DNA from: a virus
Virus record (IMG/VR): IMGVR_UViG_3300043396_000036
Span: 1-28,650 of that record
DNA length: 28,650 nt
Strand: one strand, 5' to 3'
Positions within the stretch are counted from its first letter, which is position 1. Each line of letters opens with the position of its first letter. The notes under the pieces are model-generated. The model did not search any database. It worked only from the letters and a program-made list of their open reading frames with translations, and had not been told where the DNA came from. The translations under genes were made by a program, and so were the position numbers. This document shows positions 4,601 to 27,091 of the stretch, one piece after another.

Positions 4601-7600
4601 ATTAATAAACGGGCTGTCATCGGCCTGGGCGCGGTCGAAAAGCTCAAACAAGACGGCCTGCTCTTCGTCGTTGAGGCTTTCGCCCTCGTCGGCCTTGTCC
4701 AATGCCCATTCATAGACGCCTTCCGGGTCGGAATTGAATTGCTTGCGAGCAAAGTCCTGAAGCTCTTTGTCGCTAATGTATGTCCTCATGCCAAGCTCAG
4801 CGCGGGCCACCAGAATGGCCTGATAGAAGCGGCGGGCGGCTGGGTTTTTGAAGATCAAAGATGGGTTACGGGCGTCAATCTTCTCGCCTTCGCCAATGGC
4901 GCGAACAGCCTTCGGATCGTTAGCCAAAGCCAGCCGGGCGGCCTCATCCTTGGCCTTGGCCCGGGCCTCCTGCTCGCCCTGCTGCTGAAGATCGCGCAGA
5001 ATCTCGCCCGCCTCCCTCACGGCCTCGTTGGCGGCCTCTTCAAGCTCGGCGGCCTGGGCCTCGTCGGACTGGCGGGCCGGGCCGGGCGGGTTGTAGAGGA
5101 TGGACGGGCTGGCTGGGTTGAACCGCTGGGAAAGCGGGATCACGTTGCCGGACTCGTCGTAGGTTACGGGGTCGGCGGATTTGACAAGAGAACCGTTTCT
5201 GACAAGGAGATGGTCTGTCGGCCATGATGTATTTAAAAGCGTGACATTGACGTTTTGCAGCATAACCGCATCAGCGTCGCCGGAGTCAATCATACGTTCT
5301 GCCTCTGGGTTTAGCTTTGCATAAGGGATTCCGTCACCACCGAAAACTTGCCCCTTTGCTCCACCGTCAATTTTTCCTAATTTTTTTGGAAATGCGTAAA
5401 ACACATAAACATACCCATCGCCGTTGTTGGCTATATATGGCGTCTGTCGATCAGCATCTAACTCTCCTTCAGCCATTTTGCCAAAATTGGCATGTTCATA
5501 AAGCTCGTCCCAAGATATTAAATCATCTGATCCTGTATAAGCGACAGCCTCAACAGGCGAGTCTGTTAAAAAAAACAGATCATGTTTAGTAAAACCGGAC
5601 CTACCGGCATTAGCTAAATTAATTTCATTCCCGTCTAACTCTTGGGCTGTGCCGTGCAGCCAGAATTTAACGCTGCCTTCTTCGTTAAGCATGGCACCAG
5701 CCGCCTTAGCCGCCTCATCCACCATGCGCTGCGCCTTGGCCATGTCTCCAGCCTCCACGGCGGCCATGTATTCGGCGTCCTGGGCGGGCGTGACGGCCGC
5801 CTGGCCGCCGGGCGGGTTGGCTAGGCCGGACTGGGCGCCTTCGTCGGCGGGCAGGGGCGTGGGCGTGGCGGGCGGATTGCGAAGCATGACGCCCGTCTCC
5901 GTGGGAACGGAATCAAGAATGTTGAACAGATTGTCATAGGCTGCTTGAATACCATCGGCCATTTCGGCAGATGTTGGCAGAGCCGGGCTTTCGTCTTTGA
6001 CGATGTTTACTAAGTAATCATTGGTGATGTCTTTGCCAAGAAGCCTGTCGGCAATGTATTTCTCAAACGCGCGGGCGGATTTCTCAACAAGAGTCGAGTA
6101 ATAAGGCTTGCTACGGGCATCATCCAAGGTTGCCGAACGTTCGGCAAATGGCCCGGTTTTCAGTGTGGTTGCGATTTGACGGAAAGCCTGCCAGACTTCT
6201 GGGCGCATATTTTTGGGCGCGGCTGCTGGCTTTTGCGTGGTCGCGTATTTATCCAGAGCTCGTGCTTTAGTAGCTCCCGTGTCGTCCAGACGGGCAAAGT
6301 AGTTGTCGAAAGCGTGGAACCACTCATGGGCAAGCGATCCTGGTCCGGTTTTCTTTGTGAGATTAATCACCACTTCTCCTGGCTCGTAGTGTGCCTTGTA
6401 TTTGGATACACCACGGGCACCAAAAGCCAGTCCAAGGGAGCCGTCTAGCGACATGGCTTTAGGAGGCACGCCCAGGGCCTCGGCAAGGTCCATCAGCGCA
6501 TCGTATGCCTGATTTAGGTCGGTTTGGCGGCGGTCGCTTTCAACCCAGTTCCCGAACTGGACGCCTCGGAAGCCGAAAGCGTCTTGGAACATTTGAGGAG
6601 AAACGTCGCCGTCGCGGCGGGCAGGCCCTTGGCGCGGCTCGTTGACCGTGCGGCGGTATTCTGGGTGCTCCTTCATCCCCTGCCACATAGCTTCAAGGTC
6701 TGCCCGGTTGTCGGCCAAGTGCTGCCTTGCCGCTTTCACGTCAGGGAAGCCTGTTTTCAAGCGGACAACTCCGTTGATTCCACGAATACCAACAAAGTAT
6801 TGGCCTGTTCGGCGGTCTTGCCATACGGCAAACGGCAGCTTTTTGGCTTCTTTGGCTTTTGGCGTTTCGGCTGGCTGTCCCGCTAGGGTAATTTTAATCA
6901 TTTCCGCCACTTCACGCCATGCCTCTTCACCAACGCGAAGAACAAGCATGTCCGTGCTTCGTTCATCTTTGGTGGCAATAGTTGCGGGTGTGAACTTGTC
7001 TAGCTTCTGGCCTTTGTAGTAGCCAACATCCCAATTAGCCACAGTCCAGCCTTTTGCTTTGGTGAAAAGCGGGTAGCCAAGATACTTGTATAGCTTAATG
7101 GCGTTAGAAAGCCCCGAAAGGCGCTGCGTGCGTTCAAGTCCTGTCAAAACAGCCGGATCAATTCCTTTGCCTGCAATCAGGTCTTGCGTGAGTTGATGCA
7201 GGAATTTTACAGCATCTCCCCAGCTTTTCAGCTTCCATGATTTTTTTGGTTTCGGCGGCAAATTGTCTCGGATGGCTTTCAGCAAAGCCAAATCATCTAC
7301 AGACACACCTGCCTCTATAGCTGCCTCGTAATCTGGTTCTGGCACATTTCTGGAAAGCGTAACGTCATCATAGGATTCGGGGAAAGCCTGATCCATGATG
7401 CGTTTGAACTTGCCCCATACGTCTTTTCGCGCTCCAAAGATTTTTTCGCCAAAATCCGTAATCTTTCCGACTGGCGGCTTGTCTGCGGCCTCCTCCCGGC
7501 CCTGCCAGGCCTCGGCGGCGGTGGCCTGGCTGGCTGGCTGGGCCTCGGCCTTCCCGGCAGCCTGCACGGCGGGCGGCTGGGCCGTCACGGGCGGGGCCGG

Positions 7601-10600
7601 GCGGCCGGGCGGTGTCCATTCAATGTCGGCGGCGGTGGCGGCCTGCTTGGCACGCATTTCTAGCCAGTCTCGAAGTTGGCCCCAAGTTGGATTGCCCTTT
7701 TCCTGCGTCGTGCGTTTCCATGCCTGCACAACAGGAACGAGAGTTTTGCGGTAGGTGCGTGATCCAAGATAAGTGTGGCCGTCTGGAATTTTTTGATCGG
7801 GATTTTTCTCCAAATCATCCGCATTGTGCAAGTTATAATCTTTGTATTGGTCAAGGGCGGTGAGGTAACTAGCCTCTGTTCCCCACTCCAAATCAAAGGT
7901 GGATTTATCGCTTTTAGCTAAACCTGCTTTCTCTGGCTTGGCGCTGTCTTTAACATCCAACGCCCGCACACGCTTGAGCAAATCTTTCAACTGCGGGGCG
8001 GTGTTGAGTAGGGTAAAAGTGCCGTCGCCTGGAATCTGAATGGTTATTTTAGCCTGTGTTGCCACACCCGTTTCAGCGTTCTTAATGGCCTGTCCAAGCG
8101 CAAGCACAAGCTCGGCTTTAATGTCCTTAGCTGGCCGTGCGCCAGCTTCCTTAGCTACGTCCTGCACATGTTCCTCCACCTTGGCCTCGGCTTGGGCGGG
8201 GCTATCGGCCACGGCCTCGGCCTGGGATGGCGTCACGGAGGCGGGCAGGGAGGCAGGCGGTTCTTTTGCCATTCCTGGGAAACCGCCTTTTGGCGCTTCT
8301 TTTTCTGCGGCGTCTGCTGCTGACTTTACAAGCAGCTTGGCGGCATCTTCTGGGGCGTAGGAACCTTGGCCGTTGGCGAGGTAAACCCAGCCGTCGTTAC
8401 CGATAGACTCAATCCTGAACACTGGACCTTTGCCATTCACTCTGACGTAATCGCCTGTTTGCAGTTCGGATTTGTCTGTCTCCTGCCCGGCCTGGGCGGC
8501 CTGCTCGGCAGGCTGGGCGGGGGCCGGGGCTTGGCGCTCGGCCAGCCATTTGGCGTAATCGTGTTCGGCCTTGGTGACGACGAACATAGAGCCGGAAGGA
8601 AGGGTAAGGCTATATTGGGTGGTCGTCCCGGCCTCTTTGCGTCTGCGCTCGTATTCCTGCTCCTGACGCATATCCATGCGGTTCAAACGTTTACCTGTAA
8701 GCTCCTTGATAGCTGGCACCTGCTCAGATTCGGCGCGGAATCCATCGGCCACCATTTCTTGAATGGCATTGAATCGTGGGCCTTGGTAGAGTTTGCCTGT
8801 GCTCTGGCTTTGTTTGGCCGTGCTGGCATCCAGAGCCGCCTTGAGCTTCCCTCGCTGCATGGCGGACAATCCAAGCGAGTCCAGATAGTCGTTCAGCGGC
8901 TTCATCCTAGCTTCCTCAGCCTCCTGGGCCGTCTTTGCAGCGGCTTCCTGCTTGGCTGAAAACTCGGCATTTTTGCGATCCCTTTCCTGTTTGCGCAGGG
9001 ATTCCTTCACGGCCTTTTCTTTTGAATCAAAGATGTGGTCGCCAAAGCCGCGCTTGTCGGACTGCTGGACAAGCCAGCGGTCTTTCATTGCATAAACGCT
9101 ATATTTGCCTTCTTCGGGAATGCCAGGCGTTGATTCTTCTGCCGTCTCCGCCTGCGGCCTCTCGGCCAGCCCGGCCTTCTCCGCCATCTGCCTGACGGCG
9201 GCCTCCACGGCGTCGGCCTCGGCCCGGATTTGCTCGGCCATGGCCGGGTCTTTGACCAGCCCGGCGATGTCGCGGAGGGCGGCCACGAACTCGCGGAACA
9301 GGGCGGCCAGTTTGTCGCGGAAGGCCGGGTCGTCGGAAGCCTCGATCAAGGCTTGGTTGCTGATCTCGCCGGACATGCGGGCTTCGACTAACTGGGCAAA
9401 CCATTCGTGCGCGGCCTGGAACTCGTCCAATTCGCCTTGGCCTTCGCCTGCCTGGGCCAAGTAAAGGCGGCGGCTGGCGGCCTTGGCCTCGGGCGTCAGG
9501 GCGTTGTAGAGGTCGAGGATGCGGCGTTTGCTAAGACGCGACAAGGCGGCCTCATGGATGAACTCATGCACCAGGAACTTGTCGATGGCCTTGTAGAGGG
9601 CATCTTTGCCGAGGTTGTTCCTGGAAAGCAGGTCAATAAGTCCTTCTGGATTGATGACCAACAAGCCTCCTTTGAGGGTTGGCTTTACCATCATGCCTTC
9701 AATCGGCTTGCCATTATCTTCTTTGGCTACCTCATACTCCACCACGCCGTCAAAGGCTTCCAAGCGCTTGGCGAGCCAGGCGGCCCCCACAATCTTCCTG
9801 TTGGCGGCGTTCTTGGCCTCCTGAGTCTTGGCGGCGGCCTTCTCGGCCTTGGCCTTGGCCGTGTAGTCGGCAATGGCGGCCTTGGCCTTGGCTAGGGGAA
9901 CATTTGGCGCAGATTGTGATTCCAGTTTGCCTCCATCTCTTCGCGTGTCGGCGGCGGAACGCCTAGTCTCTCCCTCTGTTTGATCCACTCCTGCCTGCGT
10001 TTTTTGGACATTTCCGCCAGTCGTTTGCGCTTCTCCAAGTCCAGCGTCTTTGGCTTGTTGAATAAGTTGCTCAATAGTTTCATCGGTAGTAGGTTGTTGC
10101 GGAGATTGCTCTGCAATTTGATCTTCAATTTTTTGAAGTTCTCTAGTGTCGGCTTTGAGTTTGGATTCAAGCTGTGTTTTTTCGTCCTCCAAAGCGCGAA
10201 TTCTGGCGGCTCTTTTCTTTTCATTCAAAGAACCTAAATTAACTTCCTTAACGCCAAAAAAGTTGGCGGGATTTTTATCGTTAATAACTTCGGTGCCTTG
10301 AGTTGATTTATAGCGGCGCGATTTCCAGTCCGTTAAAGCGGCGTCAATTTCTGTAATCCTTGCTTTTGCCTGTGCAATTTGGCTTTCAACATACGCCTTG
10401 GCCTTGGCTAGGGGCGTGGCCGGGGCAGGCTCGGACACGGCTTGTCCGGCTTGGGACACGGGCTGTCCTGGCTCGCGGGCGGCTTTCTCTCGGGCCGTCA
10501 TGTCGGCAAGCCCGGCCTTGAACTCGTCCAGGCTCATTTCCTGAATGCCTCCAAAGCCCTGCCAATCGGCGGTGTAGTTGGCCCGGTAGGCCAATTCGGC

Positions 10601-13600
10601 CTCGGCGGCAGTGTCGTAGCCGATGATGGTCTTGAACTCGTCGAACTTGCCCGTTTTTGGATCGTTCTGAGTCACCACAAACACAGGCCCGGTGTAGTCC
10701 TCGGGCGTGCCCGGCTTAATGAACACGTCGGCATGTTCGCCCGTATTGTCCACGGTGCCCTTGATGTAGCCGTAATGGTCGGACAACGCGCCCCATTCCG
10801 GGCGGCGTTTGGTGCCTGCCTCGTTTTCAATGGAGATGTCGAGGCCGCCAATCTTGGCATGGCCTTTCTTGTAGTTGCCTGCCTCTTTCTGGGCCTCGCT
10901 AGGCTCCGGCGCAGGGTTGGCCGGGCTTGTGGCGGCCTGGGCGGAGGCTTCGTCCACGGGGGCGGGCGGGGCCTCCTGCCGGGCCGTGACTTGGCTGGCT
11001 GGCACGGCCTTGGTGGTGCCATCCTCAAAGCGGACTTTGACCTTACCAAAAGCGTTGCCTGTCACCACGGCCGGGCGGCCTTCTACGGCCACGGGCTTGC
11101 TTTCGTAGTTGCTGGCCTCGCGCTTGGCCTGGGCGGCGGATTCCTTAGCCGTGAGCTTGCCGGTGATCTGGCGCTTAACGGCGGCGTGCTTCATGCCCTC
11201 GGCCTTGAGTTGCTTGGCGCGTTGTTCGGCGTCGGCCTCCATCTTGGTGATGGTTTCCACGCGCTTCTTATGAGCGGCCTCGGCCCGGGCAAGCTGGTCT
11301 TGCTGGGCGGGTGTCAGTCCTCCGCCTGCTGCTGGCTCAGGCTCAGGAGCCGCTTCTTGTGCCGGTGCTGGCGGTTGTTCTGGCACCACGGGCAGCTTCC
11401 GTGATTCCTGCATGACCTGTCCACGGATCGGCTCTGGCGATACGGCTGCTTGCGGCTGCGGCTCATTGACTGGGGCGGGCTCTGGTGTCGGCGCTGTTGC
11501 CTCGCCAGCCGTTGCGGGCTGCACAGGCATTTCAGCGGCCATTTCCGCGTTGGAGCCTGTGATGGTTTGCGAGGACTTGGGTGCTTCTGTCGCGCCAGAA
11601 ATGGTTGCAGGGGCGAGAGTCGAACTCGCTTCTGAAGATAATGAATCTCCCGTGATGACCGTTTCACTACCCTGCGGTTTTGATTCTGCGGCCTTCTCCT
11701 TGGCCTGTCCAGCCTTTTTCTTGGCGGCTGGCTTGGCTTCGGCCTCGTCGATCTGGGCTTTGCGCTCGGCTTCGTCCAGGCGGATTTGCCGGGCAAGCAG
11801 GGGCTGGCCTTCGTCGTCCAGCCATTCGGCGGCCTCGTTGCGAATGACGAGTTTGCCCTTGTAGTTTTCCACCAAAGGCGTTGTTTTTGGGGCCGGGATG
11901 ATTTTGCCGTCCTTGCTGACGAATCCCAGGGCCTCGCGCTCGCGGGCGTCCAGGCTTTCCAGGCTTGCGCCCTGGGCCACCTTGACGAGGCCGGAGGCGG
12001 CGGCCCGGGAAACGTCCTCGGTGGTGCGGTTGGTGCGCTTCACCGTGTCGGCCACGGCCTGCGGCAGCATGGCCTCGCCCGTGGGCGTGAAGGCCTTGAT
12101 TGCGCCGGCGATGTCGCCCGTCTGGGCGGGCTGGCTGATCTGGGCGGGGGCAACGGGGCCGGGCATGGGGGCCGTGGCCTGGGGCTCGGCTGACGCTTCG
12201 GGTGCGTTGCGGTCGAGGTAGCCACGCAGGCCAGAGGCACCGCCGCCTAGCACGCCGCCGACAAGGCCCGCCTCGGTGGCTTCGGCAAACACCTGTTCCA
12301 GGGGTTTGTTCGGATCGTAAGAGAGCTGGGCAATAATACCCTGCATCATCTGGTCTGACCACTCTTCAAGGGATTCATCCGCCACGCCTTCGCCCACTTG
12401 GGCCATAATGCCGCGTTTGATGGCGGCCTTGGCGAGGGCCTGCCCTTCAGGGCGAAGCAGGCTTTCCACACCTCCCGACCCCAGGGCGGTCAGCACGCCG
12501 GTAACAAGGCCGGAGGCGATGGCCGGGGCGGCCGCTTTGGCCTTGGCTTCTTCCTGACTCAAGCCCTGCTGCATGTAGGCGTCCACGGCGTCCACGAATG
12601 TCCCGCCTCCGCTTTGGGCGGCTGCGTCGATGGCGGATGCTCCCAGGGCGGCGGCCCCTGCGCCAAGCACACGGCCAGCCACGCCACCAGCGGCTAAGCT
12701 CTCCATCACGGAAGGCACGCCACCAGCCACGCTTGCCATGAATCGGCCCGCCATGTTTGTGCCCTTGCCTGCCTCGCCTGCTGCGGTCTGGTAGGCCTGG
12801 GCGCGGTCCTGCCAGTAACGGGCGTAGTCCAAGGCGGTGTCGGAGTTGGTGAGGCCCGCGATTGCGCCGAGCCAGCCGGACGGAAGGCCTGCGGTGGAGC
12901 CCAGGAACTTCATCACGGCGGCATTGAGCGCCCCGCCTTCCTTCATGGAGGCGTTAAACTGCTCCATGCGTTCCACGTCGTTCCCCTTAGTGTTCTTGTC
13001 CAGCCACTCGGCAAACGAGGAGTTTTTGCGCAGATTCTTCAGGGCCTCGGCGGCCACTGGCCCGGCAAGCTCGGCCCGCATGGCTTTGGCGCGTTCCTTG
13101 GCTTCTGGCGTGGTGTCGGCCTCGTCCACGGCGGCGTTGTAGGCCTCGGGGTCGAGGAGTAGGCCAGGATTCACCGTCACGTTGCCGTCTGGAAGCACGC
13201 GGGCTTTTTCGTTCAGTGGCTTGGCCGTTTCCGGGTCGCGGTGCGGGTTGCTCCAGTCAAGTTGGCGGTAAGTCTGCAAGGCCTGCTTGGCCTCGGCCGG
13301 GTCAAGGCCATGCTTGGCAGCCTCCTGGTTGAGGCGCAAGAAATCCTCTTTCGTCCAGTCGTCCGAATACATTTCCTTGGCCCATGTGTCGTAAAGCGGC
13401 TTGGCCTTCTCCAGCACGGCGGCTTTTTCGTGCGGGTAGAGCAAGTCGGGTTCTCCGGTCTGGCTGGCCCAGTCCTCGGCGGTCATGGCTTCTTCGGCCT
13501 GGGCCTGCCAGTAGGCCCGTTCCTTGGCGATTTTGGCCTTGGCCTCGGGCGTGGTGGCCTGCTGCTCGGCCTTGTTCAGGCCTTCAATGAGGCTTTCCGT

Positions 13601-15166
13601 GTCCCTTGCCCCTGCCCTATCGCCTTCCGGCTCGCCGGGCTGGCCGATGAAGCGGGGCTGCTGGATGCCCATGCGGTCCAGGCGGTCGAAGGCTTCCACC
13701 ATCAAGGCCCGGCCCGGGCTGTCGGAACTGCGGCTGCTGGGTGCGGGAATGCCTGCGGCCTTGGCCTCTTCGACCATCTGCTTCTGCATCTCGCCCCATT
13801 TGCCTTCAAGCGGGCGTGCCCACTGGTTGTTCCGGCGGTCCATCTCCGCCCCGGCGGCGGCCAGCACTTCGCGGCGGTCCTGCGAGGCCTTGAGAGCGCC
13901 CTGGGCCGATGTCACGGCCTCGGCGTTCCAGTCGTCGTAATCGGCCATCTCGGCCTCAAGCTGGGCCTGCTGGTCGTCAAGCGCCTGCTTCTGCTCCAGG
14001 CTAAGGCCTTGGGCCTCGGCGGCCTGCCGTTCGGCCATGAAGGCGGCGTGCTTCTGCTCAAGGTCGGCCCGGCCCTTGGCGACAAGTTCAAGGGTGCCCT
14101 GGGCTTCCGTCTCCTGTTCGGTGATGATGTCTGCCTGTGCTTGGGCCTCGGCGGCAAGATCGGCGTCCGGCAGTTTGGCGAGGCTGGCGGCCTTGCCTGC
14201 CTTCCAGGCGTCCGGGTCGAGCATCTGCTCTTTCAGGTCGAGGGCGCGGAGCTTCAGTTCTTTGGCTTTGGCCTCGGCATCCTTGGCGGGCTTCACTTTG
14301 TCGCGCAAAGAAAGGTAGCTCTGCGCCGTGGCTTTGGCAGCGTTCTGTTCTTCGTCGGCGCTGTCGGGTGCGTTGGCAAGCTCCTGGGCGGCGGTGTCGA
14401 GGTCTTTGCCTGCGGCGAAGGATTCCAGAGAGGAAACGGCGGCATCGTAGGCGGCGGACTCTTCCGGGCTGGCCTTGGGCGCGGTCAGGCTCAGGCGGTC
14501 GGCGTCAATGTCGAGCTTGTCGGCCTGGGCCTTCAGCTTCTTCACGGCGGCAGCCTCGGCCAGTTTGTCGGCCTTCTCCTGCTTGGATTTGGCCCATTCC
14601 TCATCACTTTGGACTGGCACCGGGCGGCCTGCCACGCGGTCCCAATTGTAGGGGCGTTTCTCCTGGGCGTATTGCAGGCGCAGGTTCTCGGCCTCGCGCT
14701 TGGCGGCCTGTTCTTTGGCCTTCTTCTCGGCCTCGGGGTCGGCTCCTAGCTCGCGCTCGCCAACACCGGGCACCACAGCAAAGAGCTTGCCGTCACGGGC
14801 GACCTTGCGGGCCGTCTCAAACGCGGAGCGCAGGCCGGTAGGCTTGCTCGGGTCGGCCTGGAACGGCTCGCCTGTGCCTGGATCGACAAACAGGTTAGAG
14901 CGTCCCGGCACCTTGACGATCTGGCCGGACTGCGTGGCTGGCTTGACGTAAGTGCCGTCTGGCAGCTTCACCTTGTCGATCACTTCGCCGGTCTCTAGGA
15001 CGCCCGCCTCTTCTTCGCTTTGGCTGGCTCGCGGAGAGGCCCGGCGGCCCACACGGCTTTGGCTGGTTCCGGCGAAAGACAAGGCGGCCGGGTAGTTGCC
15101 GGGAGTTTCGGCGAATTGCTGGAGGCGGCGAGGGTTGCGGAGGAGCGAGGCGAGGCCGTTGGACAT
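1622..15166 (-). CDS. Giant polyvalent protein: InPase-like, two zincins, ART-like, LPD38-like (4,514 aa)
   Basis: One uninterrupted frame of 4,514 codons. Residues about 130-560 are Ala/Lys/Glu coiled coil. Residues about 800-985 hold Gly/Ala-rich hydrophobic stretches that could enter a membrane. A Ser/Thr/Pro linker at 1164-1189 coincides with a tRNA cloverleaf. Residues about 1430-1555 match the InPase domain of polyvalent proteins (GNYKKGH, HYGYIKGT, DVFI, DEFK). A zincin follows with HEFIHE at 1867-1872 and a later HEW as possible third ligand. Residues about 2570-3110 resemble the conserved LPD/zincin block (FGEKIFGARKD, DAFGFRGVQFGNW, HEWFH at 2947-2951). Residues about 3120-3360 look like the polyvalent ADP-ribosyltransferase (WLHGT, VTYDESGNVIPLSQRFNP). 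A helix-turn-helix-like segment lies near 3685-3715. The C-terminal part from about 3840 resembles LPD38 and includes a hydrophobic segment near 4163. Such proteins are thought to be packaged and injected. The start is chosen because a promoter ends 6 nt before it. Domain names are recalled, not searched. Confidence 0.93.
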   Translation of the reverse strand: MSNGLASLLRNPRRLQQFAETPGNYPAALSFAGTSQSRVGRRASPRASQSEEEAGVLETGEVIDKVKLPDGTYVKPATQSGQIVKVPGRSNLFVDPGTGEPFQADPSKPTGLRSAFETARKVARDGKLFAVVPGVGERELGADPEAEKKAKEQAAKREAENLRLQYAQEKRPYNWDRVAGRPVPVQSDEEWAKSKQEKADKLAEAAAVKKLKAQADKLDIDADRLSLTAPKASPEESAAYDAAVSSLESFAAGKDLDTAAQELANAPDSADEEQNAAKATAQSYLSLRDKVKPAKDAEAKAKELKLRALDLKEQMLDPDAWKAGKAASLAKLPDADLAAEAQAQADIITEQETEAQGTLELVAKGRADLEQKHAAFMAERQAAEAQGLSLEQKQALDDQQAQLEAEMADYDDWNAEAVTSAQGALKASQDRREVLAAAGAEMDRRNNQWARPLEGKWGEMQKQMVEEAKAAGIPAPSSRSSDSPGRALMVEAFDRLDRMGIQQPRFIGQPGEPEGDRAGARDTESLIEGLNKAEQQATTPEAKAKIAKERAYWQAQAEEAMTAEDWASQTGEPDLLYPHEKAAVLEKAKPLYDTWAKEMYSDDWTKEDFLRLNQEAAKHGLDPAEAKQALQTYRQLDWSNPHRDPETAKPLNEKARVLPDGNVTVNPGLLLDPEAYNAAVDEADTTPEAKERAKAMRAELAGPVAAEALKNLRKNSSFAEWLDKNTKGNDVERMEQFNASMKEGGALNAAVMKFLGSTAGLPSGWLGAIAGLTNSDTALDYARYWQDRAQAYQTAAGEAGKGTNMAGRFMASVAGGVPSVMESLAAGGVAGRVLGAGAAALGASAIDAAAQSGGGTFVDAVDAYMQQGLSQEEAKAKAAAPAIASGLVTGVLTALGSGGVESLLRPEGQALAKAAIKRGIMAQVGEGVADESLEEWSDQMMQGIIAQLSYDPNKPLEQVFAEATEAGLVGGVLGGGASGLRGYLDRNAPEASAEPQATAPMPGPVAPAQISQPAQTGDIAGAIKAFTPTGEAMLPQAVADTVKRTNRTTEDVSRAAASGLVKVAQGASLESLDAREREALGFVSKDGKIIPAPKTTPLVENYKGKLVIRNEAAEWLDDEGQPLLARQIRLDEAERKAQIDEAEAKPAAKKKAGQAKEKAAESKPQGSETVITGDSLSSEASSTLAPATISGATEAPKSSQTITGSNAEMAAEMPVQPATAGEATAPTPEPAPVNEPQPQAAVSPEPIRGQVMQESRKLPVVPEQPPAPAQEAAPEPEPAAGGGLTPAQQDQLARAEAAHKKRVETITKMEADAEQRAKQLKAEGMKHAAVKRQITGKLTAKESAAQAKREASNYESKPVAVEGRPAVVTGNAFGKVKVRFEDGTTKAVPASQVTARQEAPPAPVDEASAQAATSPANPAPEPSEAQKEAGNYKKGHAKIGGLDISIENEAGTKRRPEWGALSDHYGYIKGTVDNTGEHADVFIKPGTPEDYTGPVFVVTQNDPKTGKFDEFKTIIGYDTAAEAELAYRANYTADWQGFGGIQEMSLDEFKAGLADMTAREKAAREPGQPVSQAGQAVSEPAPATPLAKAKAYVESQIAQAKARITEIDAALTDWKSRRYKSTQGTEVINDKNPANFFGVKEVNLGSLNEKKRAARIRALEDEKTQLESKLKADTRELQKIEDQIAEQSPQQPTTDETIEQLIQQAKDAGLGEAQTTGGNVQKTQAGVDQTEGETRRSAADTRRDGGKLESQSAPNVPLAKAKAAIADYTAKAKAEKAAAKTQEAKNAANRKIVGAAWLAKRLEAFDGVVEYEVAKEDNGKPIEGMMVKPTLKGGLLVINPEGLIDLLSRNNLGKDALYKAIDKFLVHEFIHEAALSRLSKRRILDLYNALTPEAKAASRRLYLAQAGEGQGELDEFQAAHEWFAQLVEARMSGEISNQALIEASDDPAFRDKLAALFREFVAALRDIAGLVKDPAMAEQIRAEADAVEAAVRQMAEKAGLAERPQAETAEESTPGIPEEGKYSVYAMKDRWLVQQSDKRGFGDHIFDSKEKAVKESLRKQERDRKNAEFSAKQEAAAKTAQEAEEARMKPLNDYLDSLGLSAMQRGKLKAALDASTAKQSQSTGKLYQGPRFNAIQEMVADGFRAESEQVPAIKELTGKRLNRMDMRQEQEYERRRKEAGTTTQYSLTLPSGSMFVVTKAEHDYAKWLAERQAPAPAQPAEQAAQAGQETDKSELQTGDYVRVNGKGPVFRIESIGNDGWVYLANGQGSYAPEDAAKLLVKSAADAAEKEAPKGGFPGMAKEPPASLPASVTPSQAEAVADSPAQAEAKVEEHVQDVAKEAGARPAKDIKAELVLALGQAIKNAETGVATQAKITIQIPGDGTFTLLNTAPQLKDLLKRVRALDVKDSAKPEKAGLAKSDKSTFDLEWGTEASYLTALDQYKDYNLHNADDLEKNPDQKIPDGHTYLGSRTYRKTLVPVVQAWKRTTQEKGNPTWGQLRDWLEMRAKQAATAADIEWTPPGRPAPPVTAQPPAVQAAGKAEAQPASQATAAEAWQGREEAADKPPVGKITDFGEKIFGARKDVWGKFKRIMDQAFPESYDDVTLSRNVPEPDYEAAIEAGVSVDDLALLKAIRDNLPPKPKKSWKLKSWGDAVKFLHQLTQDLIAGKGIDPAVLTGLERTQRLSGLSNAIKLYKYLGYPLFTKAKGWTVANWDVGYYKGQKLDKFTPATIATKDERSTDMLVLRVGEEAWREVAEMIKITLAGQPAETPKAKEAKKLPFAVWQDRRTGQYFVGIRGINGVVRLKTGFPDVKAARQHLADNRADLEAMWQGMKEHPEYRRTVNEPRQGPARRDGDVSPQMFQDAFGFRGVQFGNWVESDRRQTDLNQAYDALMDLAEALGVPPKAMSLDGSLGLAFGARGVSKYKAHYEPGEVVINLTKKTGPGSLAHEWFHAFDNYFARLDDTGATKARALDKYATTQKPAAAPKNMRPEVWQAFRQIATTLKTGPFAERSATLDDARSKPYYSTLVEKSARAFEKYIADRLLGKDITNDYLVNIVKDESPALPTSAEMADGIQAAYDNLFNILDSVPTETGVMLRNPPATPTPLPADEGAQSGLANPPGGQAAVTPAQDAEYMAAVEAGDMAKAQRMVDEAAKAAGAMLNEEGSVKFWLHGTAQELDGNEINLANAGRSGFTKHDLFFLTDSPVEAVAYTGSDDLISWDELYEHANFGKMAEGELDADRQTPYIANNGDGYVYVFYAFPKKLGKIDGGAKGQVFGGDGIPYAKLNPEAERMIDSGDADAVMLQNVNVTLLNTSWPTDHLLVRNGSLVKSADPVTYDESGNVIPLSQRFNPASPSILYNPPGPARQSDEAQAAELEEAANEAVREAGEILRDLQQQGEQEARAKAKDEAARLALANDPKAVRAIGEGEKIDARNPSLIFKNPAARRFYQAILVARAELGMRTYISDKELQDFARKQFNSDPEGVYEWALDKADEGESLNDEEQAVLFELFDRAQADDSPFINRPGFDQEMVKLGHYIRESRGTTGRMLRYGRDRVETPQQRWKRAFYHIKGPDSKQAAMLRIAPSAREKARRIAELEDQLSKASAARRADIEAALAKAKRQKSRAEVLEEITAENERLMDNIIDKMGGVTRDDIMHSPLERYGLQTAILDLPAVREALGKFDNGRDIMRLAFRGFSNEHIAGALQIPEGDVADFIKQANDAIIRPAVTEQVKAGKTFGDWIKSGLDILARKTGLRQPPSTRPLENWRTLITGKRQTLDEVTAEVNRVMGYALQSQKARDSKKLMSKVINTPTGQRVRVFVPFDPDDATNYYSFAREYSAAKANVFDKFYEYWINWPLLSGPQTQVVNFTGNAAQVAWHYTGQRLAEATLNSLVYHDPNSAQLREFWHIMKGFWKSIGPALDMARQSFLTEGDTVRHKFLNEPLQIDIVDGDIDKVGGIRAAVGGKLGRLNRLPGRVLRWTDSFFKTAVLYAEASAVAYRKAHASAKAQGLKGQARRDFIDTEIDNTLKDPQSPVWADVMDTAEELLFQDDNVATAIVDTMLGGYRGVNAFEKALAEAKASGNSKTVAVLNAMIAGAKAVNRIMRFIFPFQRTPTNIIRVGLRKGGGSAIVGLYHLLHGGWLKYKDGTPMLESYTKAMQIKDLSETGIAVMGWLMLASMFEGDDDDEKKPFLIVGSRPSSRQGYPEKQAFLNKYGGESSFVWQDSKGNVIASKSFGRYEPIGTLLTTWVDAYRNFQEVRRRQKAGEAASFKTYMLSSFVSGLENKSFLQGLSNIMEWIRDIEERRENPDVDANTKLFLRNVVPNIIKQPMRNWDEVVRETKTAGAGYSALPNPALSPKLPTFAAEPKISTTGQKMRKDLSAPARLLFPANTVVTPQPDALLYRANRLNPTAAKWPSGIQRDEFFYRAPGAKPKTPGYHVPIEDAAGKRRFAEMVGQEYTKEVRNYVASLPPALKARPGPEQIEGLAKAMTEARKKARILYGLQKPKTPAITTSNK
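9879..10414. repeat. 20-bp direct repeats flanking an AT-rich insert in the giant gene
   Basis: The identical 20-mer GCCTTGGCCTTGGCTAGGGG occurs at 9879-9898 and 10395-10414 on the plus strand. In the protein it encodes the motif PLAKAKA at both borders. The 496 bp between the copies are visibly poorer in G+C than the flanks and encode a charged coiled coil plus a Gln/Thr-rich linker. The copies would allow gain or loss of the cassette by homologous recombination without breaking the frame, since the repeat-to-repeat distance of 516 bp is a multiple of three. Confidence 0.85.
11602..11676 (-). tRNA. tRNA-like cloverleaf with CAU anticodon and encoded CCA, inside the giant ORF
   Basis: On the minus strand, in the sense direction of the giant gene, 75 nt fold as a standard tRNA. 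The acceptor stem is GCAGGG/CCCTGC below a C1.A72 mismatch. T8 and A9 follow. The D stem is GTGA/TCAC with a GG-containing 8-nt loop. The anticodon stem is GGAGA/TCTTC (one G.U) with loop TTCATTA, giving T33 and anticodon CAT. The variable loop is AGAA. The T stem is GCGAG/CTCGC with loop TTCGACT, which fits TTCRANY. Discriminator A is followed by CCA. The C1.A72 mismatch is the bacterial initiator signature, but the GGG/CCC anticodon pairs of initiators are absent, the D stem is elongator-like, and T37 is unusual. It is translated as residues 1164-1189. No separate promoter is seen. It could be a functional tRNA processed from the mRNA, a relic captured by the ORF, or a tRNA mimic. Confidence 0.72.
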
Positions 15167-19973: not shown

Positions 19974-20390
19974 TTAGGCGGTCAGGGCTTTGAGCTTGTA
20001 AACGCGCTTGCTGGATTCGGTGGCGAGGCCCTGAATGAGGTTCTGCGTGCCGTCTGGCAGGGCTTTGTCCTTCATCATCTCGGCAATCTCCTCCTGAAAC
20101 TCGCGCTCAAAGCCAAGTAGGCGGTCAAAGAACTTCTGGTTGCCGGAGTCCTTGAACGTCGGAATCAGCCGCTTTGTCACGGCCTGCATGATTTCCGCCG
20201 GGCTGTATGGCTTGCCCTGGGCCAGTGATTCCTCACAGAGGTCGTCAAAGGCCGTCTCATAGGCCGGGTAAAGCTCCCCGAAGAACTCATGGTCTTGAAG
20301 AAAGGTCGGCCCCTTGGCGAGGTGATGGGCCGAGTGGGCGTAAAGCTGGGCGGCGCGGTAGCAGGAGGCAAGTTCAAGGAGGGCGTGCAT
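19974..20390 (-). CDS. Dps-like ferritin-superfamily protein, one metal ligand missing (138 aa)
   Basis: Residues 22-60 match the Dps ferroxidase region. H22 and H34 are 12 apart, D49 is 15 after H34, and E53 is 4 further, the spacing of E. coli Dps H51, H63, D78 and E82. The local pattern AKGPTFLQDHEFFGELY also matches Dps (KGP.F...HE.F.ELY). The residue equivalent to Dps D67 is Gly38. A later helix (LLGFEREFQEEIAEMM) fits the fourth bundle helix. At 138 residues it is shorter than typical Dps (about 160-170). Dps proteins sequester iron and protect DNA; in a phage it might condense or shield DNA, but no phage role is established here. It leads the operon with DUF3310 and TerL and has a near-consensus promoter whose -10 ends 6 nt before the ATG. 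Confidence 0.72.
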   Translation of the reverse strand: MHALLELASCYRAAQLYAHSAHHLAKGPTFLQDHEFFGELYPAYETAFDDLCEESLAQGKPYSPAEIMQAVTKRLIPTFKDSGNQKFFDRLLGFEREFQEEIAEMMKDKALPDGTQNLIQGLATESSKRVYKLKALTA

Positions 20391-20396
20391 TGGCTT

Positions 20397-20425
20397 ATTT
20401 TAAGGCGGCCCGGCTGGCCTGTCAA
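20397..20425 (-). promoter_or_regulatory. Near-consensus promoter of the Dps-like/TerL operon
   Basis: Minus strand: TTGACA (20425-20420), 17 bp, TAAAAT (20402-20397), then 6 nt to the ATG at 20390. The -35 is perfect and the -10 has one mismatch from TATAAT. The short distance to the ATG implies a leaderless transcript. It is the best sigma-70-type promoter seen in the window together with the one at 24284-24312. Confidence 0.72.
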
Positions 20426-20514
20426 CATCTGGCCCTGTCTCCCACGCCCTATGGCCTTTATGGAGGCCAGGCCCGCCTGGACACTGCCCGGCCGGGCTGG
20501 CAGGATGGCAGGCT

Positions 20515-20748
20515 ATGACTGAAAAGCAGCTAAATGTCCTAGAAGCGGAAGTGTGCGCCAATCTCAAGGAGGCGGACACCTGGGAAATCCATGAAACAGA
20601 CATCATGCGCATTTGCCAAGCAGAATCGCCGTTCTGGCCCGATCTGGATAAACACTTTAATGCGCCGTCTGGCCCCTACACAGTTAGGGACAAATGGCAC
20701 GCTTCCCATTTTGAGCCGACTTGGTTTGTGTTTCGTCGCAGAAGGTAA
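20515..20748 (+). CDS. Hypothetical small acidic protein (77 aa)
   Basis: Starts MTEKQLNVLEAEVCANLKEAD and ends FEPTWFVFRRRR. The composition (charged, Trp-containing, few repeats) looks protein-like, and the base composition is more AT-rich than the structural genes. Upstream TGGACA, 17 bp and CAGGAT, ending 8 nt before ATG, form a weak version of the promoter pattern used elsewhere. It is convergent with, and overlaps by 65 bp, the minus-strand gene that ends at 20684. No family recognised. Confidence 0.5.
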   Translation: MTEKQLNVLEAEVCANLKEADTWEIHETDIMRICQAESPFWPDLDKHFNAPSGPYTVRDKWHASHFEPTWFVFRRRR

Positions 20749-20905
20749 TGCTACTTCCCCCTCTGTCGATTGAGTGAAGCCTGACTTCCTTGCCTTCCAC
20801 TTCGACAAAGGCGGGCCAATCGCCCATACCAAACTCGTTAACGAATCTCGTCAAGATGGCGTGAGCCGTGGCTATGGTCATTCCCTTGCATGGAATTTTA
20901 CTCAT
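20684..20905 (-). CDS. Hypothetical small protein from a leaderless-type promoter (73 aa)
   Basis: Start MSKIPCKGMTIATAHAI is chosen because a TAACAT box ends 5 nt upstream. An in-frame ATG at 20920 lies inside that box and so is less likely. The protein has a predicted helix (ATAHAILTRFVNEFG) followed by beta-rich sequence (PAFVEVEGKEVRLHSI). No family recognised. It diverges from the gene at 21210, and the two share mirror-image promoters. Confidence 0.55.
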   Translation of the reverse strand: MSKIPCKGMTIATAHAILTRFVNEFGMGDWPAFVEVEGKEVRLHSIDRGGSSITFCDETQTKSAQNGKRAICP

Positions 20906-20910
20906 GTCCG

Positions 20911-20940
20911 ATGTTAACATAACACCGCCCGGCTGTACAG
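20911..20940 (-). promoter_or_regulatory. Left arm of a mirror-image promoter pair
   Basis: Minus strand: CTGTAC (20940-20935), 18 bp, TAACAT (20916-20911), 5 nt to ATG at 20905. Bases 20929-20911 read GGCGGTGTTATGTTAACAT, identical to the plus-strand element at 21185-21203, and the upstream TGTAC has the same offset in both. The element ends in the 10-bp palindrome ATGTTAACAT, which could be an operator. Confidence 0.65.
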
Positions 20941-21173
20941 GCCAAAATGCGCCCGGCCTGGGCCTAGCTTGGCATTCCACCGCTGGCCGGGTCCAGATAC
21001 CAGGGCGTAGGCAGGCGGTCTTTAGGCGTCGGCGTGTAGGCCTTGGGCGTGGTCCTGGGCCGGGTCCACTTGGCCTCGAAAGCTAGAGGCGGCGGCCAAG
21101 CAGGCCGGGGCCAAGTTCTCTGCCTGGGCTCGCGGTGTTCTTCTGGAAGCTGCCAAGGATAGCAAATAATGCC

Positions 21174-21203
21174 TTGTACGTTCTGGCGGTGTTATGTTAA
21201 CAT
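21174..21203 (+). promoter_or_regulatory. Right arm of the mirror-image promoter pair
   Basis: Plus strand: TTGTAC (21174-21179), 18 bp, TAACAT (21198-21203), 6 nt to ATG at 21210. It shares a perfect 19-bp inverted repeat (21185-21203) with 20911-20929. The 255 bp between the two repeat arms hold no gene I can support; one minus-strand frame is open there but has no usual start codon. Confidence 0.65.
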
Positions 21204-21209
21204 TACCGA

Positions 21210-21512
21210 ATGAAAACGGCTCTCCTGCGCTTTATCCGGTGGTCTGGACTACTCAAAAACGCGACGATTGTTTTTGACCCGCTAAGAGAACAATTCGCCA
21301 TCTCTGTCGATGTTGGAACGCTCAGGTTGATTCAGTGGCAATTTCCGCCCCAAGGGGTTGATTCAATTCGTTCTATTTTAGCAAATTACGAATCTTTGCG
21401 CGTAATTCGTCATTCCCCAGCTCCATCTCGTTCATCAAATGATGTACTTGGGTCGCCTCTTCCCCTTGAAGAACCTCGGATTTTCCTGAAACGAAATCCA
21501 GTCGCAGGCTAG
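21210..21512 (+). CDS. Hypothetical small protein (100 aa)
   Basis: Starts MKTALLRFIRWSGLLKNATI. The first 70 residues look like a folded alpha/beta protein (FDPLREQFAISVDVGTLRLI), while the last 30 are Ser/Pro-rich and lie over a convergent gene, so the true functional part may be shorter. The start is supported by the promoter box ending 6 nt upstream. AT-richer than the structural genes. No family recognised; the setting among small two-strand genes suggests an accessory gene. Confidence 0.5.
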   Translation: MKTALLRFIRWSGLLKNATIVFDPLREQFAISVDVGTLRLIQWQFPPQGVDSIRSILANYESLRVIRHSPAPSRSSNDVLGSPLPLEEPRIFLKRNPVAG

Positions 21513-21663
21513 AATCGTCCGAAACTCCAACTACCGCTTCGGCTCCGTAATCAATAGACCGCTTCACCTCTTTTGTTCCGGGGTAGTATCTTATTTTTTC
21601 CACAAGGAGAGGGTTGATTGAACCTTTATTGCCCAAAAGCTGGATCATGCGGTATGGCTGCAT
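21373..21663 (-). CDS. Hypothetical small protein (96 aa)
   Basis: Reads MQPYRMIQLLGNKGSINPL from the first ATG; the ATG at 21648 (MIQLLGNKG) is an equally good start. Beta-rich in the middle (EAVVGVSDDSSLRLDFVSGK), then a helical charged tail (HLMNEMELGNDELRAKIRNL). The composition is convincingly protein-like through its whole length, including the 140 bp that overlap the convergent plus-strand gene. No promoter directly upstream; it may be transcribed from the promoter at 21871-21899 through the 46-residue gene, whose stop is 60 bp away. No family recognised. Confidence 0.6.
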   Translation of the reverse strand: MQPYRMIQLLGNKGSINPLLVEKIRYYPGTKEVKRSIDYGAEAVVGVSDDSSLRLDFVSGKSEVLQGEEATQVHHLMNEMELGNDELRAKIRNLLK

Positions 21664-21723
21664 AGGCCGCCAGCCTGCCGGGGCCGGGCCTAGGCGCGCA
21701 AGCCTAAAGAAGGCCGGGCGGCC

Positions 21724-21864
21724 TCATTTGCCCGGATCGGCCTTGCCCAGCACCTTGGCAAACACGCCCTGGGCTGCCTTAATGCCAGACTCGGCGGCCT
21801 TGCCCGCCTTGGTGGCGGCGGCCTTCTTGGCGGATTCACGGCGGGTCTTGGGGCGGGCTGGCAT
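21724..21864 (-). CDS. Tiny Lys/Ala-rich basic protein (46 aa)
   Basis: Starts MPARPKTRRESAKKAAATKAG and ends VFAKVLGKADPGK. The N-terminal half is strongly basic, in the style of histone-tail or AlgP-like DNA-binding peptides; the C-terminal half could form one amphipathic helix. It is below the usual length cut-off for gene calling. The evidence that it is real is a TTGATC, 17 bp, TAGATT promoter ending 6 nt before the ATG. A nucleic-acid-binding role is only a suggestion from composition. Confidence 0.5.
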   Translation of the reverse strand: MPARPKTRRESAKKAAATKAGKAAESGIKAAQGVFAKVLGKADPGK

Positions 21865-21870
21865 GGTGGT

Positions 21871-21899
21871 AATCTAGCAGGATTCAGGGCCGGGATCAA
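21871..21899 (-). promoter_or_regulatory. Promoter of the 46-residue gene
   Basis: Minus strand: TTGATC (21899-21894), 17 bp, TAGATT (21876-21871), 6 nt (ACCACC) to the ATG at 21864. Same leaderless geometry as at 15173-15201 and 20397-20425. Confidence 0.6.
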
Positions 21900-21955
21900 G
21901 GCGGCTGACGTTTCAGCTTGCATCAAAAGGGCGTTTTGGGCGTACTGGCGGCACT

Positions 21956-22291
21956 ATGCAACAAAGCCAGCTTGATAGCCTACGCACACAGCTACAGGAA
22001 TGGAGCACCCAGCGGGTCAAAGAGGAAATGACCGGAGTTGATTCAACTCATCCGGATTATGAAGTCAGGAGGGCCTTGTGTCTGCAAGAGCTTTCAGACC
22101 GCAGAGAGCGAAGGAACTTTAAGCTTAACCTCCTGATTATCGTCCTGACTCTAGCCGGGATTGGGGCAACGCTGCTGGCGAGTCAGTGGAAGGGGAGCGT
22201 CCTGGAAGCTTGGCTCCAGCGTAAAATGCCCCCGTCACAAGAAGGAAAAGCGCCGCCCTCCCCACATTCGTCTCCTCAATTAAAACCTTGA
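21956..22291 (+). CDS. Small single-span membrane protein (111 aa)
   Basis: Residues 1-60 are polar and helical (MQQSQLDSLRTQLQEWSTQR), followed by one hydrophobic span at about residues 60-77 (LLIIVLTLAGIGATLLA), then a Pro/Ser-rich tail. With Arg/Lys just before the span, an N-in orientation is likely. It could be an accessory or lysis-related membrane protein, but no family is recognised. The last 155 bp overlap the convergent minus-strand membrane gene. The promoter is poor: TTGCAT is present, but the -10 (CGTACT at 17 bp) is a weak match. Confidence 0.55.
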   Translation: MQQSQLDSLRTQLQEWSTQRVKEEMTGVDSTHPDYEVRRALCLQELSDRRERRNFKLNLLIIVLTLAGIGATLLASQWKGSVLEAWLQRKMPPSQEGKAPPSPHSSPQLKP

Positions 22292-22361
22292 TAATCAAGG
22301 CGGGAACGAGAAAAACGGCCGGAAGTAACGCGATTAAAATATCAAGAGTTTCGCTGTTCAT
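22137..22361 (-). CDS. Small membrane protein, holin-like in size and topology (74 aa)
   Basis: The start at MNSETLDILIALLPAVFL gives an N-terminal hydrophobic span (about residues 8-24, with Pro), a short charged turn (KVLIEETNVGR), a second span (AALFLLVTGAFYAGA), and a polar tail. Two spans in 74 residues fit a class II holin, but no other lysis gene is visible, so this is a guess. A TTG start at 22412 would fuse it directly to the upstream stop. No promoter of its own is seen; it is last in the 23509-22137 operon. It overlaps the convergent plus-strand membrane gene by 155 bp, so one of the two tails may not be essential. Confidence 0.5.
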   Translation of the reverse strand: MNSETLDILIALLPAVFLVPALIIKVLIEETNVGRAALFLLVTGAFYAGAKLPGRSPSTDSPAALPQSRLESGR

Positions 22362-22412
22362 CTGAGTGTCTTTTGGGTTGTAGGTTCCATAACTGAAGGA
22401 GGACAGGGCCAA

Positions 22413-23255
22413 TTACTCGCCCGTCGTCAACCCCATGGGCGTGGCGACCATGGCAAACCAGCCGGGCTTGGCCGGATGCGGGCCGTATTCGGCGAGGGCC
22501 TGGAACTTGTCGGCAAAAGCCCGTTTGAGGCCTGTCACAATGTCGGGATGCACCTCGCCGGGGAACTCCATGCCGCACATGCCCCGCAAATCAAGGTCTT
22601 GGCGGATGTCCTGGGCCTTGTCGTCCAGGCTGGCCTCAATCTCGGCCAGGGCAATGGCCGGATCGTCGGACATGGGCTGCATTTCGACCTTTGGCATGAT
22701 GAGCGGCCGGGCCTGGGCCTCTTGGCCGATTACGGGCTGGTGGACGGGCGCGGCCTGGGTCTGGATGCGGGACACGCACCAATTCAGCACTTTCTTGGTC
22801 AGGCCTGGAATGCGGCCGCCCTCGCCCTGATCCCAAAGCAGGCGGCTGAACGGGCAGGCGGCATAGACGGGATGCTCCTCAAAGCCTTCGTTTGCCGCAA
22901 ACCTGGGCACCGGCCAGTTCCAGGCGGCGGCCAGCGGGGCGGGCATGTCCAAGGCCACGATGGGCACGGCCGGGCCGTCCGGCTCCACGGGCAGGGCAAG
23001 CAGGATGCTGGGCAGGCGGCCGTCCAGGCAGGCCCGCATGAAGCCGTCCTCAAGCATGGTCCGTTTCTGTGCAGCTCTTTCGCCGGCGACGGCCAGGGCC
23101 AGCTTGCGCGGGATCGCCATGAATGAGGGCGGCTTGCCGGTCTTGGCGCGGAGCTGGCGGGCCAGGGTTGCCAGCACCTCCAGCATGGGCGTGTCTCCGG
23201 GCAGGGGGGCGAAGGCTTCGGGGGCGGGCGTGTCGGGTGTGGTGTCGGCGGTCAT
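22413..23255 (-). CDS. Hypothetical protein (280 aa)
   Basis: Residues 1-23 are Pro/Thr-rich. Then come a helical region (LEVLATLARQLRAKTGK), a Leu/Pro-rich segment (RLPSILLALPVEPDGPAVPIVALDMP), a Trp-containing patch (AAAWNWPVPRF), and a C-terminal acidic helix (DKAQDIRQDLDLRG). No catalytic motif or known family is recognised. The ATG overlaps the preceding stop as ATGA, so the two are coupled. The coding signature (third-position GC, GCC/GGC codons) matches the late genes. Confidence 0.78.
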   Translation of the reverse strand: MTADTTPDTPAPEAFAPLPGDTPMLEVLATLARQLRAKTGKPPSFMAIPRKLALAVAGERAAQKRTMLEDGFMRACLDGRLPSILLALPVEPDGPAVPIVALDMPAPLAAAWNWPVPRFAANEGFEEHPVYAACPFSRLLWDQGEGGRIPGLTKKVLNWCVSRIQTQAAPVHQPVIGQEAQARPLIMPKVEMQPMSDDPAIALAEIEASLDDKAQDIRQDLDLRGMCGMEFPGEVHPDIVTGLKRAFADKFQALAEYGPHPAKPGWFAMVATPMGLTTGE

Positions 23256-25264: not shown

Positions 25265-25537
25265 CTAGGCGGCGGCGGGCTGGCTGTCCACTGATTTTTC
25301 TTTGAGAAGCCAATTTATCTGGCGAAGCAAAGCGTTGGCCCTAGCCTTTTCTCGCTGCCAGCCTACCTGGGCCTCTACGTCCTCGATCAGTTGGCACGTC
25401 ATGGTCCATTTGAGCGCCCAGCCTACATTCAACCATTGTTCCAGCTTGTCGCGCCGCCTCATTCTTTCCTGGGTTATCCTGCCCCAGAAATCGGCCTGCC
25501 TAGCCTCGGCCACGGCGGCTTCGTGGGCGTGGCTCAT
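25265..25537 (-). CDS. Hypothetical helical protein (90 aa)
   Basis: Starts MSHAHEAAVAEARQADFWGR and continues as charged, Trp-rich helices (DKLEQWLNVGWALKWTMTC, KARANALLRQINWLL). No family recognised; a small structural or regulatory helical bundle is possible. It is one of two genes in the window with a strong Shine-Dalgarno sequence (AAAGGAGG, 6 nt before ATG), which lies in the last codons of the upstream gene. The ATG overlaps that gene's stop as ATGA. Confidence 0.75.
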   Translation of the reverse strand: MSHAHEAAVAEARQADFWGRITQERMRRRDKLEQWLNVGWALKWTMTCQLIEDVEAQVGWQREKARANALLRQINWLLKEKSVDSQPAAA

Positions 25538-25851
25538 GGCTGGCCTCCTTTCTCCGGCGTGGCAAACACGGCCCTTGGCTTCCTCGGCCTCCCCGGCCTA
25601 TGCGGGGCCTGCCCAGCTTGCCGGCGCTGGTAGCCGACTGCCCGGGACGTGCAGCCGATCTGCCGGGCAATGGCGTGATCCGTCATGGCCCAGTCCACGC
25701 CCGCCCAGTCGTAGCGCAGGCGGGTATTCCGGTAAGGCCCGCCGTGGCAGGCCTCGCACCGGGCGTGCCCAGGCTCGGCCTTGGCCGTGCCGCAGGTGAT
25801 GCACAGGCCCTCGGCGGCCTTGCGGTGCTGGTAAAGGCTCTGCGGGCTCAT
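25534..25851 (-). CDS. Zinc-ribbon and helix-turn-helix DNA-binding protein (105 aa)
   Basis: Residues 17-35 carry CITC and CEAC, two CxxC pairs of a zinc ribbon. Residues about 48-80 read as a helix-turn-helix (DHAIARQIGCTSRAVGYQRR). GRPRKPR near the C-terminus resembles an AT-hook. Together these suggest sequence-specific DNA binding and a role as a phage regulator, by inference. The start has AAGGAGG 7 nt upstream and overlaps the preceding stop as ATGA. Its own stop overlaps the next gene the same way, so three genes are coupled. Confidence 0.72.
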   Translation of the reverse strand: MSPQSLYQHRKAAEGLCITCGTAKAEPGHARCEACHGGPYRNTRLRYDWAGVDWAMTDHAIARQIGCTSRAVGYQRRQAGQAPHRPGRPRKPRAVFATPEKGGQP

Positions 25852-26703: not shown

Positions 26704-27051
26704 TTAGATTTCCAGCAATCCCGCATGAACTTCGCGGTGGCAGTTGGCACACAAGAGAGTGCATTTCATAAGTTCCTCTATCACTTCGCTCTCATCTCGG
26801 TTTGCTGCTATTGAAATGGGAAACTTCTTTTCGGTTCTGCTTCTGTGGTGAAACTCAAGCGCTTGGGAGCATTTGGTGTAGCCGCATGAAAAGCACCCCT
26901 CCTTTTTTATTCCTTCTATCAACCTTTGAATCCTTGCCTGCTCCTCGGGTTTGATTTTTTTGGCCTTTCTTTGAGGGCGTTTGGTTTGTTTTTGGCTTTG
27001 TGCCAAAAGATGCATAGCCAGCCTTTCAATGTAATTCGGCTTTGTTTTCAT
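26704..27051 (-). CDS. HNH endonuclease (115 aa)
   Basis: The C-terminal half has the HNH metal and catalytic pattern: CFSCGYTKC, then LEFHHR, then LLCANCHREVH. The N-terminal half is basic (KTKRPQRKAKKIKP) and would contact DNA. It cuts or nicks double-stranded DNA. HNH proteins beside terminase genes can assist packaging (as in HK97-like phages) or be homing endonucleases. The gene is clearly AT-richer than TerS upstream and the genes downstream, which favours recent arrival. The start is taken at MKTKPNYIERL, 40 nt after the TerS stop; an earlier in-frame ATG would overlap TerS. Confidence 0.88.
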   Translation of the reverse strand: MKTKPNYIERLAMHLLAQSQKQTKRPQRKAKKIKPEEQARIQRLIEGIKKEGCFSCGYTKCSQALEFHHRSRTEKKFPISIAANRDESEVIEELMKCTLLCANCHREVHAGLLEI

Positions 27052-27091
27052 GGTTTGTGTATTTTTGTGCGTGTCAGCCGCCGGAGTTCTT

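Follow-up and report, generated by a model that had tools for sequence, protein, structure and literature searches.

Divergent leaderless-type promoters as the probable nature of a 19-bp inverted repeat in a phage accessory island

The window analysed here, a whole stretch of 28,650 nucleotides of viral DNA, carries a 19-bp perfect inverted repeat that is best explained, and probably correctly so, as two divergent leaderless-type sigma-70 promoters driving an accessory gene pair. The promoter match and the layout rest on sequence comparison, and from these we infer transcription from both arms. The feature is ordinary in kind, belonging to a known promoter type, and new as an instance; promoter function by itself does not account for the identity of its two copies.

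20911 to 20929, minus strand: left arm of the 19-bp inverted repeat (GGCGGTGTTATGTTAACAT), exact match
21185 to 21203, plus strand: right arm of the 19-bp inverted repeat (GGCGGTGTTATGTTAACAT), exact match

An earlier note on this DNA had placed the 19-mer at 20929-20911 (-) and 21185-21203 (+), and both coordinates and strands were correct, with no mismatches. It had proposed a search of the whole phage for more copies; across the 28,650-bp virus contig, which is the entire record, this disclosed exactly two, and no third with up to three mismatches (chance expectation 0.01). The sequence ATGTTAACAT inside each copy is the perfect 10-bp palindrome the note had seen, and TGTTAACA has no other occurrence in the window. 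No exact inverted repeat in the record is longer, and in 100 second-order Markov simulations the longest inverted repeat measured 14-18 bp, never reaching 19 bp. The repeat is a real, non-random feature. Also as claimed, TGTAC lies exactly five bases upstream of each copy, at 21175-21179 (+) and 20939-20935 (-), which lengthens the arms to 34 nt at 82% identity; all six mismatches fall in the outer 15 nt, identity ending sharply after 19 bp. The ATG said to follow each copy begins 6 nt away at 21210 (+) and 5 nt away at 20905 (-). A genome scan with GTGTTATGTTAACAT returned more than 100 matches in unrelated organisms, the chance level for 15 bp. Four matches to TGTAC-N5-GGCGGTGTTATG in viral contigs, all in contigs of lower G+C and none running on into TTAACAT, were likewise judged to be chance.

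Both arms follow a common promoter pattern: yTGTAC, 18 nt, TGT-TAACAT (an extended -10), 5-6 nt, and ATG.

20911 to 20916, minus strand: left promoter, -10-like hexamer TAACAT with TGT extension, then 5 nt to ATG; promoter score rank 21 of 57,230, scored with hexamer TGTACA at 17 nt
20935 to 20940, minus strand: left promoter, -35-like hexamer CTGTAC, in the same 18-nt register as the right arm
21174 to 21179, plus strand: right promoter, -35-like hexamer TTGTAC, 18 nt from the -10
21198 to 21203, plus strand: right promoter, -10-like hexamer TAACAT with TGT extension, then 6 nt to ATG; promoter score rank 27 of 57,230

The suggestion of two mirror-image promoters is supported by the rank of both arms in the top 30 of 57,230 sigma-70 scores, obtained with a matrix for -35, -10, spacer and TG extension whose generic frequencies may not fit the sigma factor of the host, and by the -10, 5-6 nt, ATG layout, which matches promoters conserved in related phages. 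The -35 hexamers are poor matches with few consensus bases (TTGTAC and CTGTAC at 18 nt), TAACAT agrees with TATAAT at only four of six positions, and a stricter consensus scan (at least 9 of 12 matches) lists neither arm.

Between TAACAT and ATG stand TACCGA in the right arm (21210) and CGGAC in the left (20905), so both arms place a TANNNT-like -10 about 5-8 nt before a start codon (TAACAT-N6-ATG and TAACAT-N5-ATG). A TANNNT motif some 12 bp ahead of the start codon is a published mark of bacterial leaderless genes, which are commonest in Actinobacteria and Deinococcus-Thermus (PMC3160421; PMC12340547). The arms have no Shine-Dalgarno sequence upstream of the ATG, and with only 5-6 nt separating the -10 from the start codon a leader could not be accommodated; the predicted transcripts would therefore be leaderless. 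The -10-like hexamer 5-6 nt before ATG, the missing Shine-Dalgarno sequence and the high-G+C genome are shared with leaderless (TA-led) bacterial promoters (PMC3160421; PMC12340547 for Deinococcus-Thermus), from which the present case differs in that the phage group has recognisable -35 boxes at strong promoters and the two arms share extra spacer sequence. In the proposed mechanism, the main sigma-70-type RNA polymerase of the host would recognise both arms as a divergent promoter pair, each combining a weak -35 (yTGTAC) with an extended -10 (TGT-TAACAT) across an 18-nt spacer. Each transcript would begin at the start codon, give or take a base or two, and would be translated as a leaderless mRNA, and the promoters would drive the two small accessory genes outward from the 255-bp spacer.

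The same layout was sought in relatives, contigs whose terminases are related (79-82%, 64% and 56-57% identical), of which the longer ones were read. In the window and its eleven relatives, 12 contigs in all, strong -10s show an excess of ATG starts, for ORFs of 40 aa or longer, at a distance of 4-8 nt, with a peak of 16 at 6 nt versus 2.5 expected, homologous genes being counted more than once. Counting distinct starts in six contigs gave 19 at 5-8 nt versus 6.2 (sd 2.9) with scrambled hexamers, and only one of 91 scrambles reached the real value. One core gene retains such a promoter in relatives.

1622 to 15166, minus strand: giant gene with conserved leaderless-type promoter; 4,514 aa here, 4,410-6,123 aa in relatives G001, G002, G005, G006 and G007

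In nine contigs the promoter of this gene retains TTGAC and a -10 that are 17-18 nt apart, with ATG 5-6 nt further on, while the spacer sequence diverges. The offset enrichment and the conserved giant-gene promoter together place the layout in use elsewhere in the same phages. The DUF3310 gene in relatives such as L005 and L017 also has, by eye, a leaderless-type promoter, with its -35 (TTGAAA) inside the end of the upstream gene. In the window, again by eye, TTGACG is kept at 22430-22425 (-), in the place of the relatives' DUF3310 -35, but there is no longer a -10 to match it, and the gene lies 2.4 kb away. The DUF3310 promoter appears to have been split by an island, within which both arms and both small genes lie.

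19974 to 22412 (approximate), no strand: accessory island of 2.4 kb, absent from related contigs spanning the site, where the flanking genes are adjacent
19974 to 20390, minus strand: ferritin/Dps-like gene (PF00210 and PHROG 3636 matches) whose promoter, TTGACA-17-TAAAAT-6-ATG (hexamers 20425-20397), scores highest in the window
21724 to 21864, minus strand: 46-aa Ala/Lys-rich ORF with the second-best promoter, TTGATC-17-TAGATT-6-ATG

Only this phage has the island, which stands between the DUF3310 gene (19963-19472) and the gene at 22413-23255; in relatives the counterparts of these two genes are adjacent, about 22 bp apart in L015. Presence in one phage and absence from the same site in relatives mark it as accessory. 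At the DNA level, relatives offered only short, weak matches to 19974-22412, and phage records and plasmids gave no counterpart. In L014, different short genes occupy the same insertion site (L014:3312-3874), which appears to be a hot spot of accessory genes.

The window's two top-scoring promoters both lie in the island, each with a 6-nt gap to ATG, and that of the ferritin/Dps-like gene is listed by the stricter consensus scan. This gene matches PF00210 at E = 1.2e-4, just under the curated cut-off, and PHROG 3636 at E = 9e-10, and it has remote relatives in other viral contigs. The DUF3310 and terminase genes follow immediately downstream of it, and it may supply their transcription. The island also holds a 111-aa ORF and two opposing small ORFs, 20515-20748 (+) and 21663-21373 (-), which overlap the 3' ends of the two small genes. 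An Rfam search gave no match in the island, and terminator-like sites were about as frequent as in shuffles (21 vs 17, sd 4). Like phage morons or accessory loci (term per PMC7067206), the island consists of extra genes between two core genes, with their own promoters and with codon scores below the core, near 0 compared with 0.37 for the terminase; unlike morons, it comprises several genes, on both strands, where a moron would be a single promoter-gene-terminator unit, and its terminators are only putative.

20684 to 20905, minus strand: left gene, 73 aa, best of six frames by codon score; no known relatives
20930 to 21184, no strand: G+C-rich spacer between the arms, 255 bp, with no convincing gene or RNA family
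21210 to 21512, plus strand: right gene, up to 100 aa, supported by codon score, no known relatives; 3' half shared with the opposing ORF 21663-21373

The standing of the two small ORFs as putative genes rests on codon score, promoter and start. Their frames are the best of six, though with scores well under those of core genes; such low scores are expected for recently acquired genes. Searches for homologues of the left gene, the right gene and the opposing ORF 21663-21373 detected none, and no phage with the same gene pair was found among the relatives. Structure models of the two ORFs from single sequences were of low confidence (pLDDT 57 and 50). Within the spacer, the plus-strand stretch 21080-21168 (KLEAAAKQAGAKFSAWARGVLLEAAKDSK) is a short frame lacking a start that resembles the C-terminal half of a ribbon-helix-helix protein; the NikA-like match is sub-threshold (E = 0.12), no relative was found, and we make no claim for it.

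The other island promoters have unrelated spacers, and no other promoter in the phage group carries the spacer sequence of the arms, so promoter function alone leaves the identity of the arms unexplained. It reflects either recognition by a regulator of GGCGGTGTTATG together with ATGTTAACAT across the two -10 boxes, or the copying of one arm to the other side. We find it plausible, though tentatively and with a little less than even confidence, that a single regulator uses the identical spacer half, together with the palindrome covering the -10, as a common operator. A recent inverted duplication, in which a short promoter-bearing segment was copied across the spacer and gave the second gene the same promoter, is the main alternative, a possible account that we would not favour outright; the arms would then be promoters with no dedicated regulator. 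In favour of copying, the other island promoters have unrelated spacers, so that function alone does not force identity, and the confinement of all six mismatches of the 34-nt arms to the outer 15 fits a copy boundary at 19 bp. Nevertheless, TGTAC stands in exact register past the first mismatches, which indicates that the hexamer is constrained, not that copying simply stopped there; four of the five bases between TGTAC and GGCGG differ between the arms while TGTAC is kept, a slight lean towards constraint. Co-regulation of the two genes through a common repressor or activator, as the earlier note had it, is a possible reading, its one piece of evidence being the identical spacer half that duplication could also explain. 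Its more specific form, a two-promoter regulon confined to the island, with a single regulator that would occupy ATGTTAACAT and the neighbouring half of the spacer at each -10 box and control the two orphan leaderless genes jointly, we regard as doubtful.

Two further explanations of the arms fare worse. In a small mobile (MITE-like) element the arms would be terminal repeats, AACACCGCC...GGCGGTGTT, and the 10-bp palindrome ATGTTAACAT a target duplication; the palindrome does occur at either outer end, and the inverted arms enclose a core in which no gene is evident. We consider such an element very unlikely: neither a second copy of the core nor an empty site was found in relatives, phages or plasmids, the 19-mer has no copy in viral contigs, a palindromic target duplication would need coincidence, and each end stands 5-6 nt ahead of an ORF start, as is the case for promoters in this group. 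Identical inverted sites flanking a short segment could also suggest site-specific recombination that inverts the 255-bp spacer, but inversion would leave the 19-mers of both promoters unchanged, and no tyrosine or serine recombinase was found in the window or in six relatives (records possibly incomplete), which makes this reading highly improbable.

As to which protein might act on the promoter arms, the earlier note had nominated an HTH protein encoded at 25534-25851. The product matches no HTH or DNA-binding family, and L014, a 12.8-kb contig that lacks both the repeat and the gene pair, carries the gene at 96% identity; together these make a dedicated role at the repeat unlikely. Divergent operator regions are known in phages, as in the lambda OR-type switches. 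The arms resemble these in their divergent promoters and in the palindrome over the -10, and differ from them in that no adjacent repressor gene was found, each promoter has one palindrome, and the promoters are 255 bp apart.

Read as promoters, the arms offer a case of phage accessory genes that apparently have leaderless promoters of their own, and they point to an uncultured phage group with leaderless-type promoters on several genes, including one for a protein of 4,400-6,100 aa. The leaderless layout helps to fix start codons and hints at the translation habits of the host.

Elsewhere in the contig, an HNH endonuclease-like ORF (PHROG 2255) at 26704-27081 (-) has lower G+C at codon position 3 than the core genes. 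The giant gene contains a perfect 18-bp palindrome, TTGCCGAACGTTCGGCAA, at 6130-6147, and a predicted tRNA-Met (anticodon CAT) lies within its reading frame on the same strand, at 11602-11676 (-). DNA alignments to four relatives start exactly at 11601-11602, at this predicted tRNA-Met, with G006 95% identical over 11602-12181.
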